DNA from: Planctomycetaceae bacterium
GTDB taxonomy: Bacteria > Planctomycetota > Planctomycetia > Pirellulales > Pirellulaceae
DNA: 52,384 bases
Assembly (NCBI GenBank): GCA_007121535.1
Contig: SKKK01000238.1
Coordinates: 1-52,384 of the forward strand
Direction: 5' to 3'
The notes below the pieces were generated by a model. It was not told the origin of the DNA. It saw only the letters and a list, made by a program, of their open reading frames with translations, and ran no database searches. The translations under genes were made by a program, and so were the position numbers. Positions 8,719-11,694 of the stretch are shown one piece after another; the first letter of the stretch is position 1; every line of letters starts with the position of its first letter.

Positions 8719-9033
8719 GTGATCTTTGTTGTCGCCACCATCGACATCCAACCCGGTAAACGCAACGAATTCCTCCAGGAATTCCAACGCATTGTGCCGT
8801 TGGTCCGCGCGGAAGACGGTTGTCTGCTGTATCAGCCCACGACGGATGTCGCAACAAGCATCAACGCTCAGATCCCCGTCCGGGATCATACCGTGACGGT
8901 CGTCGAGCAGTGGTCCAGCTTAGAGGCGTTAGAAGCTCATCTGATCGCGCCACACATGATGGAGTACCGCACCCGTGTCCAGTCACTGGTGGCGGGCGTG
9001 CAATTGCAGGTAGTCCAAGCGGCCACGGCATAA
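8719..9033 (+). CDS. Antibiotic-biosynthesis-monooxygenase (ABM) domain protein
   Basis: A 104-residue single-domain protein of the ABM/YgiN ferredoxin-like fold. Visible family features are the first strand FVVATIDIQPGKRNEFLQEF, a middle segment EDGCLLYQP, then the strand VTVVEQWSSLEALEAHLIAPHM with the conserved His-Leu and His-Met pairs. Members are small dimeric oxygenases or quinol-handling enzymes in the cytoplasm. I chose the GTG at 8719 because GCGAGGGAG precedes it and the family fold starts there; the longer frame from 8617 would run over the terminator. The length matches the family. The substrate is not predictable. Confidence 0.85.
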   Translation: MIFVVATIDIQPGKRNEFLQEFQRIVPLVRAEDGCLLYQPTTDVATSINAQIPVRDHTVTVVEQWSSLEALEAHLIAPHMMEYRTRVQSLVAGVQLQVVQAATA

Positions 9034-9056
9034 CTTGGCCCGTTACGCGTGTTTGT

Positions 9057-9710
9057 TCACGATCCGTCGGCGGATGCCAGCAGTTGTTCGACAAGCGGTT
9101 GAACGTGCTCGCCATAGGTGAACCCACCCTCGCCGAACTGCGGATCCTCGTTGGTGAACACCTGTGCCAATTCTCCGTCGGCGCCGTAGACCATGACGAT
9201 CGGCACGGCAGCCGCTCCGACGATCGAATACAATTCCTGGTCCGGCGTGCTGCTGATCACGTTGGGAAAAGTCGCGTTTTGCTCACGCAAAAATTCCAAA
9301 ACCTCGTCGCGGAACGACTCCGGCGGTTCGTTGGGCAAGCCACCGTAGTTCGCCGAGACAGAGATGCAGGTCAGTCCCTTCGGGAACGATTCCTGCAATT
9401 TGACGAAATCGGGAAACTTGATCCTGCAAGGTACACACCAGGTGGACCAGATGTCGATCACCACGACTTGGCCACGGAGATCGGCTACCATCTGCTGGAC
9501 TTCTTCCCAACTCTTGACCTCGACGGTGACCTCATCGACCTCATCGACCTCATCGGATGCGGTTTCTTCTGCATCCGGGGCTTCGGCGGCTTGGTCCTGT
9601 GGCAGATCTGGCGTGGGGTCAGAAGGTGTTTCGGACGGCTGGCAGCCGATGACGCAAGCCAAGAGCAGACCGAGTACGACGTTTATCAGAGAAGCTTGTT
9701 TCAGCATCAT
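9057..9710 (-). CDS. TlpA/ResA-like thioredoxin-fold lipoprotein
   Basis: This 217-residue protein is an exported thiol-disulfide oxidoreductase. It has a signal peptide with lipobox CVIGC (Cys 23), an acidic low-complexity linker (residues 25-62), then a thioredoxin fold with the redox motif WCVPC (Cys 92, Cys 95) after strand VVVIDIWST, and the cis-proline segment AAVPIVMV. This is the TlpA/ResA arrangement used in extracytoplasmic disulfide reduction, such as cytochrome c maturation. The start is supported by GGGAGA upstream. The next gene on the same strand, at 9856-10419, encodes another thioredoxin-like lipoprotein, so the two may work in related redox chemistry, although a terminator-like hairpin lies between them. 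Confidence 0.88.
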   Translation of the reverse strand: MMLKQASLINVVLGLLLACVIGCQPSETPSDPTPDLPQDQAAEAPDAEETASDEVDEVDEVTVEVKSWEEVQQMVADLRGQVVVIDIWSTWCVPCRIKFPDFVKLQESFPKGLTCISVSANYGGLPNEPPESFRDEVLEFLREQNATFPNVISSTPDQELYSIVGAAAVPIVMVYGADGELAQVFTNEDPQFGEGGFTYGEHVQPLVEQLLASADGS

Positions 9711-9784
9711 GGTTCTCCCGATCGATAATGTTGGCGGAAATAAACAACCCCGGCGCGGGGCGTAGTACGAAACGGAAACGAAAA

Positions 9785-9823
9785 TCGGGAAGCGACCGTG
9801 CCTGGTCCACGGCCGCTTCCCGA
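9785..9823 (-). terminator. Terminator-like hairpin between the two thioredoxin-like genes
   Basis: The arms CGGGAAGCG and CGCTTCCCG pair perfectly, with an inner CCGTG/CACGG stem. Read on the minus strand the hairpin is followed by ATTTTCGTTT, a T-rich tail suited to ending transcription of the gene at 9856-10419. Confidence 0.65.
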
Positions 9824-9855
9824 AAAGGTTGGCTCGACATCAGCAAAAAATTCGC

Positions 9856-10419
9856 CTAGTTGAGCATCGTCTTCAAGCCGTCGATGACCTTGGCCGTCGC
9901 GTCATCATTCAGCTCTTCATTTTTCGCAGAGAAATTGAAGGTCACCTTCCTTCGTGTGTAATGCATCACGGTAACATCGACATCGTCGCTGATTTCAAAA
10001 CGGTCGGCATCGCCGGTTACCACCAAAGCGGTATTTTCGATGCCATGCTTTTCAGCGAACTCCGCAATCTTCTCCAAATACTCGTCCGTCGCCTCACCCG
10101 GGAAATTGATCACTGCCGCCAGTTGTTTGTCGGCATTTTCAGCAACCGCTTTGTCAATCGCTTTGGCCAAACTGGCCAAATGATCGTCGGCGTTCTTCGC
10201 AAACACGAAGATCACCGGACGACCGCCCAGCCGTCACGTATAGCACAGGGATTGTCCGACGGCGACACCGTCGTCGACCCCCCCAAGTTTGACCCCGGTG
10301 TAATTGGCTATAGCGCCACCCACCCCAACGCCGCTTGCCACTTCGTTCGCGGGAACTTGCGCACACGCGACGAGCACGACGGCCAGGGCGGTTGCACTCA
10401 CTGCGCAAAAGAATCGCAT
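9856..10419 (-). CDS. Putative selenoprotein: thioredoxin-like lipoprotein with C-x-x-Sec motif (in-frame UGA at 10234-10236)
   Basis: One continuous minus-strand frame of 188 codons is broken only by a TGA at codon 62. Upstream is a lipoprotein signal (MRFFCAVSATALAVVLVAC); the start at 10419 is chosen because AGGAGG lies six bases before it. The UGA follows Ser-Leu-Cys-Tyr-Thr and precedes Arg-Leu-Gly-Gly-Arg-Pro-Val, giving C59-Y-T-U62. Downstream, strand VIFVFAK, an acidic helix and repeated alpha/beta elements (LAAVINFPG, TALVVTGD, VTVMHY) suggest a thioredoxin-like fold. From memory, planctomycete relatives carry a CYxC motif at this place, so UGA would replace the second cysteine, the usual pattern for selenoproteins. 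A long bulged hairpin follows the UGA (10182-10224). The second half has no ribosome site of its own. The alternatives are a nonsense mutation or a sequencing error. Confidence 0.72.
10182..10224 (-). promoter_or_regulatory. SECIS-like hairpin downstream of the in-frame UGA
   Basis: Counting from the first base after UGA, bases 10-15 pair with 47-52 (one G-U), base 16 is a bulged C, bases 17-21 pair with 42-46 (one U-G), 22 and 41 form an A-A mismatch, and 23-28 pair with 35-40. That makes 17 pairs closing the loop UGUUUG, whose second base is G. The loop starts 29 nt after the UGA. A G among the first loop bases and a UGA-to-loop distance of about 16-37 nt are published features of bacterial SECIS elements, which sit inside the coding sequence and bind SelB. 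Confidence 0.68.
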
Positions 10420-10893
10420 AAGCAACCTCCTCATTGTGAAAAACCTCTCTGCAAAAATCCGCTTGCGTCAAACGACCAGGTCCGAAGCGGCATGAATCAC
10501 GCCGATTCATCATAATCTACTATCGTACCAACCCATGACCAACTGGAAAAGTAGCCTGCCCAACCAGCCTTCCAGCACCAACCACCCACGGGAAGGGAAA
10601 CTCGATGTTAGTCAAATGGATGGGCATAAGGCATATTCAATAGAGGGAGCCACATCGGTCACTAATGGATGGGTGGCCTTCGTTGCCTGGCGCTAGCCGC
10701 CGGTTTTTTCGTTGTGGGGGAACCGATCCCGAATGGGCTTCGCCCCCTTGCCCTGTCCTACAAGTCGACCATGATAGACCCAAGGATTTTGGGTCCGGGT
10801 AGACGCACTCACCAGAGTGCGGGTTTCCCTAGCCGTACTCCCACCTTCTGGCGAGCGCGGCGACTTCCACGGCGAAAGATAAACGAGGTGCTG
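10420..10893. other. Intergenic region between divergent genes
   Basis: This 474-bp stretch holds no supported gene. It carries repeat fragments: GGCGCTAGCCGCCGG at about 10679, the short palindrome CCCAAGGATTTTGGG at about 10780, and an ACTCACCAGAGTGCGGG motif at about 10807 that resembles one at about 7066. The promoters of the putative selenoprotein (leftward) and the Nif3-like gene (rightward) must lie here; I cannot place them. Confidence 0.45.
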
Positions 10894-11694
10894 ATGATCC
10901 CGTTGCGCGACATCTGTGAATTCCTGGATACGTTCGCTCCGTTGGAGACGGCCGAGGACTGGGACAACGTTGGTCTGTTGGTGGGCGATCCAGATCGAAT
11001 GGTGGCCCGGGTGATGACCTGTCTGACCGTCACGTCGGACAGTGTGACCGAGGCGGTCGAGGATGCTGTGGACCTGATTGTTTCGCACCATCCGATGCCG
11101 TTTCATCCGCTGAGACGTCTGACAACGGAAAAGACGCCCAGCCGCCTGCTTCTTCGGTTGATCCGGGCGGATGTGGCCGTCTACAGCCCTCACACGGCTT
11201 TCGATTCGGCAGCGCACGGGATCAATCAGCAACTGGCCGACGGCCTGGGTCTGACGAACGCGCTGCCGTTGGTGGTGCAAGATCCGCAGCGCCCCGAACA
11301 AGGTTCCGGTAGGTACGGTTTGTTGCAGAGGCCGATCAAACTGGCCGATCTGGCGCAGGAACTGCGGCGGTTCCTGGGGATTGCGGGCCTGCACGTGGTC
11401 GGAGATCGCAATCGCGATGTGCGACGAATCGCCGTGGCTTGCGGCGCGGCCGGCCAGTTCTTGGAACCGGCCGGGCAGGTTGGTTGCGACGTGTTGGTGA
11501 CCGGTGAAACGACGTTCCATACCTGCTTGGAGGCCGAGGCCTTGGGCATGGGTTTGTTGCTGCCGGGACATTACGCCAGCGAGCGATTCGCCGTCGAGAC
11601 GCTGGCCGAACGTCTGGCCGATCGATTTCCCAAACTTGTGGTCTGGGCGAGCCGGCAGGAGAAAGATCCCTTATTTTGGGCAAACGAGGTCTGA
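10894..11694 (+). CDS. Nif3-like dinuclear metal centre protein (YbgI/DUF34 family)
   Basis: This 266-residue cytoplasmic protein matches the Nif3/DUF34 family, toroidal hexamers that bind two metal ions per subunit. Key segments are the N-terminal DWDNVGLLVGD, the metal-binding SHHPMPFHPLRRL, SPHTAFD, and C-terminal GHYASERFAVETLAERL with its conserved His and Glu. The ATG at 10894 follows GAGGTG and gives the canonical N-terminus; upstream codons read into repeat DNA. The length is typical of bacterial members. Their function is debated (a GTP cyclohydrolase-like or metal-insertion role), so only the family is assigned. Confidence 0.92.
   Translation: MIPLRDICEFLDTFAPLETAEDWDNVGLLVGDPDRMVARVMTCLTVTSDSVTEAVEDAVDLIVSHHPMPFHPLRRLTTEKTPSRLLLRLIRADVAVYSPHTAFDSAAHGINQQLADGLGLTNALPLVVQDPQRPEQGSGRYGLLQRPIKLADLAQELRRFLGIAGLHVVGDRNRDVRRIAVACGAAGQFLEPAGQVGCDVLVTGETTFHTCLEAEALGMGLLLPGHYASERFAVETLAERLADRFPKLVVWASRQEKDPLFWANEV

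Follow-up and report, generated by a model that had tools for sequence, protein, structure and literature searches.

The TlpA/ResA/DsbE-like oxidoreductases are exported proteins with a thioredoxin-like core, and the structure predicted here for a planctomycete protein resembles theirs (Z 17.2 for the DsbE-like entry 3gl3 and 16.1-16.7 for ResA entries). The family to which this protein belongs, however, lacks a CxxC at the start of helix 1 and carries its CYxU/C motif before strand 1 of the predicted fold; profile-profile comparison found no sequence homology to TlpA (hhalign probability 2). The peroxiredoxins Tpx, Bcp/PrxQ and AhpE likewise share the core fold (Z 15-17), whereas the family has neither Cys nor Sec at the helix 1 peroxidatic position; among 31 members scanned, none matched Pfam AhpC-TSA and a single weak Redoxin match appeared (E 0.086). 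A Cys-x-x-Sec motif is known from catalogued selenoproteins, including SelW-like, AhpD-like, Trx7/PDZ, Prx-SUH and UshA-like 2 proteins and the FCYXU TonB receptor (PMC13188914, available in part), yet our family, with about 187 aa and an export signal, has no Pfam or NCBIfam match that would place it among them. In UxxC TlpA-like selenoproteins, which two of our loci resemble in carrying UGA within WALWUxHC (a neighbouring gene in L139 and a fused domain in L157), Sec occupies the classical thioredoxin site, unlike that of the family described here, which lies in a different place and in a different protein.

Within the accessible part of PMC13188914, the catalogue contains no such family and the string "planctomycet" does not occur. 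No description of the family was found in the available portions of PMC12013277, PMC4807772, PMC2398784, PMC9312934 and PMC1242214, and subscription journals lay mostly outside our coverage. As far as their accessible parts go, PMC4807772 reports selenoproteins in planctomycetes P1 and P2, and a table in PMC2398784 includes "GOS_A" with 2 Sec and 155 Cys sequences; that the family corresponds to GOS_A, or to an entry in the S9 table of PMC4807772, is not excluded by these partly available sources. Among viral contigs, 20 pattern matches contained no relative of the family. Very probably this is a new selenoprotein family of planctomycetes, one that appears to be uncatalogued. Standard gene calling truncates such genes at the UGA. 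With numerous Sec and Cys members within a single phylum, the family lends itself well to the question of why selenocysteine is retained in some lineages and lost from others. It also presents a thioredoxin fold whose redox site is inferred to be displaced, together with a named candidate partner, which is directly testable.

The gene was found in a 52,384-nt stretch of DNA from a Planctomycetaceae bacterium (contig SKKK01000238.1), to which we refer as the window (Table 1). A preliminary description of this DNA had pointed to a single TGA in an otherwise clean frame, at the second redox position of C-Y-T-x. Both points were borne out: the minus strand, which that description had left unspecified, translates into 187 residue positions, the TGA included, followed by a TAG stop, and the TGA is codon 62. 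The predicted protein starts MRFFCAVSATALAVVLVACAQVPANE, reads C59-Y60-T61-TGA62-R-L-G-G-R-P around the site, and contains no Cys after residue 62. We conclude that the gene very probably encodes an exported redox protein with selenocysteine. The ribosome-binding site that had been proposed is present, but the lipoprotein signal proposed with it stays uncertain. The window protein has an LVAC box, whereas a lipobox was found in just seven of the 114 family rows, one of them being that of the window, and an AxA-like site in 102 of the 114; these sites were scored by simple patterns and not by a trained predictor. Judged from the sequence, lipidation of the window protein is possible, but being a lipoprotein is not a trait of the family.

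Table 1. Positions of the predicted selenoprotein gene, its elements and its neighbour within the window.
Feature	Coordinates	Strand	Basis and remarks
Predicted selenoprotein gene	10419..9856	minus	187 aa with Sec at residue 62; export signal, CYxU motif, thioredoxin-like domain; translation, family alignment, fold model (pLDDT 90.3)
In-frame UGA, proposed Sec codon	10236..10234	minus	Residue 62 of CYTU; translation and UGA/Cys column in relatives
AGGAGG ribosome-binding site	10426..10431	minus	Sequence; just 5' of ATG
N-terminal export signal (predicted)	10345..10419	minus	About residues 1-25; LVAC lipobox at residues 16-19, or signal-peptidase I cleavage; translation
Predicted bSECIS-like hairpin	10184..10222	minus	Apical loop GUUU (10204-10201), 29 nt after UGA; -21.1 kcal/mol
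Terminator-like hairpin	9785..9823	minus	16 pairs; between selenoprotein gene and TlpA-like gene; consensus scan
TlpA/ResA-like thioredoxin gene	9057..9710	minus	217 aa, WCVPC; downstream neighbour, same strand; Redoxin 7.6e-8, AhpC-TSA 3.6e-7; proposed redox partner

Under the standard code a UGA is a stop, in which case the locus would be a pseudogene, contain a sequencing error or make a short product of 61 residues. A GTG-started ORF of 119 aa does follow the UGA, but the relatives give no hint of a separate gene there. A translated search detected the family in 140 of 296 genomes of the same order, and among the 150 matches listed, 22 had an in-frame stop, which was TGA every time and never TAA or TAG, against what an ordinary stop would lead one to expect. 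From this search we read 50 loci, namely each of the 22 that had a stop plus 28 that had none; the proportion 22/50 is not a frequency of UGA, since the loci were chosen to include every one with a stop. The TGA fell on one column in 22/22 loci, and the same column held Cys in 28/28, giving the motif C-Y-x-[U/C]. The suggestion that relatives would have Cys at the UGA site thus held in every stop-free locus read.

Looking more broadly, we scanned named genomes across all prokaryotes and obtained 38 loci, 16 of them duplicates of earlier loci. Every one of the 38 bore a planctomycete title; Planctomicrobium, Kuenenia and one Rhodopirellula baltica strain were represented. When 392 genomes of the phylum were searched with a profile, 58 contained the family, and additional families and classes proved to have UGA forms; the loci from this search were read together with 20 more sequence stretches. 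Once identical proteins had been removed, the pooled set comprised 114 distinct rows, with U at the site in 45, C in 66, S in one and A in two. Relatives with Sec or Cys at the same position occur across planctomycete bacteria; the family was seen only in Planctomycetota here, where most of the searching was also done. On a tree of the family, the U/C label requires at least five changes, four of which are forced by well supported branches, and UGA rows sit on most of the deep branches. The direction of change is an inference, because the root is only a midpoint root and the tool warned of long branches. The members are related, so that their sequences are not independent.

Several relatives depart from the common arrangement. 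Three divergent ones (L110, L155 and L156) have CPVU in place of CYxU, one (L157) has CYAS, and two distant ones (L158 and L159) lack both redox residues, reading DYAA and DYVA. One locus (L144, on contig C214 of genome G339) holds two adjacent copies on one strand, both with UGA.

The protein encoded 3' of the UGA is under selection, as the computed substitution rates show. Over the 45 codons after the UGA, dN/dS was 0.04-0.27 in seven of ten pairs, some sequences being used in more than one pair. In two pairs, which differ by 1.0 and 2.5 synonymous changes, the values were 0.71 and 0.77; the remaining pair had no nonsynonymous change at all after the UGA. Low ratios in seven pairs count against an ordinary stop, as do the 45 distinct genes whose UGA falls on one Cys column, a number that makes a base error in sequencing very unlikely, and the stronger RNA folding after the site in UGA genes that is described below. 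We regard the ordinary stop as having only a slim chance of being correct.

We asked how strongly the 51 nt downstream of the site codon fold, relative to recodings that encode the same protein and match its codon usage. In a first set, 26 UGA genes had a mean z of -1.67 (p 2e-9) and 45 Cys genes a mean of -0.35 (p 0.007), the latter thus also folding slightly beyond the synonymous null; the two groups differed with a Mann-Whitney p of 4.5e-7. The difference was present in the overlapping +18 segment as well, and there was none in the segments at -54, +57, +111, +165 and +219. In a second set, the mean z was -1.31 for 18 UGA genes versus -0.40 for 28 Cys genes (p 0.0013). These were 18 of 19 new UGA genes, one having been dropped for an undetermined base, and four of the Cys genes (L111, L112, L113 and L115) were shared with the first set. 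Here UGA genes folded more strongly in the +111 segment, too (p 0.024), which is unexplained.

The window gene itself reached z -3.19, with none of 300 recodings folding as well, and its predicted hairpin conforms to the bSECIS rules that PMC13188914 sets out in its section 5. The same review describes many bSECIS elements as unlike each other and unlike those of E. coli. A rule-based bSECIS scan did not discriminate, with 12/26 UGA genes passing versus 36/45 Cys genes, and RNAalifold (gap-free) recovered no structure common to the 26 UGA genes. The Rfam SECIS_1 model was uninformative, its controls being without a match as well, and an Rfam scan of window positions 9700-10600 gave chance matches only.

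All of the genes selA, selB, selC and selD, which the preliminary description had proposed to look for, were found in the assembly that contains the window. This is a draft (9.3 Mb in 706 contigs, 95.3% complete, 3.13% contamination), and the sel genes lie on contigs other than that of the window: SelB on C85 (318.5 bits), SelA on C694 (554 bits), two SelD on C502 (371.3 bits) and C456 (367.2 bits), and tRNA-Sec on C409 (63.1 bits), identified by ARAGORN as SeC with anticodon TCA (UCA). The Rfam tRNA-Sec model alone is unspecific, exceeding its cut-off in 5/14 control genomes, and its next three matches in the assembly were tRNA-Ser. Absence of these genes, or homologues without Cys at the site, had been named as observations that would refute the selenocysteine interpretation; neither did, and the interpretation is supported overall. 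The SelD on C456 (L019, 22963-23886) itself has an in-frame TGA (GUAAK) and that on C502 (L018) has none, so the assembly has both forms. Near the start of C502, a second SelB-like match above the cut-off (L002, 99-860) may represent a second locus or contamination.

Of the 296 genomes of the order, 192 had some SelA-like match and 82 had SelA above the curated cut-off. SelA above the cut-off accompanied the UGA form in 17 of 20 genomes, versus 23 of 120 in which the family was present but no UGA form was listed (Fisher p=1.8e-8). Most of the 120 were classed by the lack of a stop alone, the residue at the site not having been read. Two of the three UGA genomes without SelA above the cut-off had strong tRNA-Sec matches (G234, 65.8 bits; G031, 64.6 bits), and the third (G288, 91% complete) had neither SelA nor tRNA-Sec above the cut-off.

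The UGA might also be read through without selenium, by a near-cognate tRNA (such as that for Trp), by a Cys-inserting suppressor or as a reassigned codon, with help from the local context. Such readthrough would likewise keep the 3' part under selection, and the base after the window's TGA is indeed C, the context to which the preliminary description had drawn attention. This context is not conserved in the family, the base being C in 19, A in 13, G in 11 and T in two of the 45 UGA genes. In addition, UGA genes track SelA, the alternative residue at the site is Cys, and in several UGA genes (L147, L150-L154 and L160) a second in-frame TGA occurs 126-129 codons further on, near the ends of the relatives, as if TGA still stops there. 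Readthrough without selenium consequently seems no less improbable than an ordinary stop. On the evidence against these two explanations, we rejected a plain stop, +4-context readthrough and a reassigned UGA.

An AlphaFold2 model of the protein, built from 34 sequences with Cys in place of Sec, had a pLDDT of 90.3 and a pTM of 0.83, and we are confident that the modelled fold is thioredoxin-like overall. The best structural match was 3gl3 (rmsd 2.0, 137 aligned residues), followed by Tpx and Bcp4 (Z 16.9 each) and the ResA entries; the comparison was also run with Foldseek. Sequence-based searches were far less informative: Pfam and NCBIfam gave only weak, scattered matches and no fitting family for the 31 members scanned, and a search of the PDB by sequence returned only designed proteins (E 0.078-4.5).

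We also modelled residues 66-187, the fragment after the motif, alone (pLDDT 93.8). Its first residue aligned to ResA 61/62, E. coli Tpx 45 and PrxQ 32, and the active Cys residues, numbered from the entry titles, are ResA 74/77, E. coli Tpx 61 and PrxQ 48. From these offsets, the classical site would correspond to about residues 76-81 (NADDHL), which contain no Cys; in the model, the window protein lacks a redox Cys pair at the N-terminus of helix 1. The model strongly suggests that Cys59 and Sec62 precede strand 1, an inference based on first and last aligned residues only, with no measured superposition. With CxxU before core strand 1, the redox site would be displaced from where thioredoxins usually have their active site. 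As regards a cis-Pro, no Pro stands directly before the conserved T150-V151 in the sequence, as seen without a residue-level structural alignment.

Sec is common in peroxidases, and the modelled fold is about equally near to Tpx, Bcp/PrxQ and AhpE. The selenoprotein could accordingly act as a peroxiredoxin-type peroxidase and not in thiol-disulfide exchange with a TlpA-like partner. Against this, the classical peroxidatic position has no Cys or Sec, the stretch after the motif already aligning from PrxQ 32 (active Cys 48) and E. coli Tpx 45 (61), and the vicinal CxxU suggests a selenenylsulfide. We consider a peroxidase less likely than not, though it is the alternative with the strongest claim.

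The preliminary description had also taken the neighbouring gene for a thioredoxin-fold protein, and profile matches in Pfam and NCBIfam confirm it as TlpA/ResA-like. Its N-terminus looks lipoprotein-like by eye. Using a profile of such neighbours, we found a TlpA-like gene in 15 of 117 loci, the window's own included, 117 being the number left after removal of 21 listed duplicates. Ten of the 15 lie downstream on the same strand, one is fused (L157), two are divergent (L059 and L060), and two sit past the 3' end in the opposite orientation (L025 at a distance of 1.2 kb, and L072). The linkage was observed in a minority of loci; 15/117 is a lower bound, because most loci had just 0.5-1.5 kb of flank. 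In an all-against-all comparison of ORFs from 45 loci, the TlpA-like cluster was the largest besides the family and its antisense frames, with 11 loci, two of which are one place (L032 and L077). The other clusters comprised at most five loci each, one including the distant L109. In the window, the selenoprotein and TlpA-like genes may be separate transcripts, because a strong terminator-like hairpin is predicted between them; the consensus scan of positions 9000-10900 found five sites versus 2.3 expected.

It is also conceivable that CxxU binds a soft metal or a selenium/sulfur species, as a chaperone or sensor, without redox catalysis. A few relatives do lack the second redox residue, L158 and L159 being without either and L157 having CYAS. 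Nevertheless, 111 of the 114 rows have U or C at the second position, and, in an analysis that did not look for metal genes in particular, the linkage to a thioredoxin also argues against binding alone, which we consider a distinctly weaker candidate than a peroxidase.

The explanation that we favor, with a probability of roughly 0.88, is that the gene specifies an exported redox protein with a thioredoxin fold, UGA 62 being translated as Sec with the help of SelB, tRNA-Sec and the RNA hairpin just 3' of the UGA. Its computational support comprises the UGA/Cys column, the Sec machinery, folding beyond codon choice, selection 3' of the UGA, the fold model and the recurrent TlpA-like neighbour; Sec insertion, the substrate and the partner chemistry are inferred, and there is no protein-level evidence of selenium. 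Cys59 and Sec62 would form a selenenylsulfide in an extracytoplasmic cycle, either thiol-disulfide or peroxide-reducing, and the TlpA-like neighbour would exchange electrons with the CYxU protein. Our best guess for the function is an extracytoplasmic thiol-disulfide or peroxide reaction coupled to the TlpA-like thioredoxin.

More tentatively, and at somewhat less than even odds, we propose a phylum-wide extracytoplasmic redox pair. One member would have a thioredoxin fold without the classical site and Cys-x-x-Sec on a loop before strand 1, the other would be a TlpA-like thioredoxin with which it exchanges electrons, and Sec could reside in either partner. That selenium use moved between the partners in evolution is inferred from the occurrence of Sec in either, as CYxU in the family and as WALWUxHC in the partner in L139 and the fusion in L157. 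In L139 (2406-2834), the TlpA-like neighbour has UGA at the first active-site Cys (WALWUSHC), and in L157 (419-856), a TlpA domain with UGA (WALWUAHC) is fused to the CYAS relative of the family.
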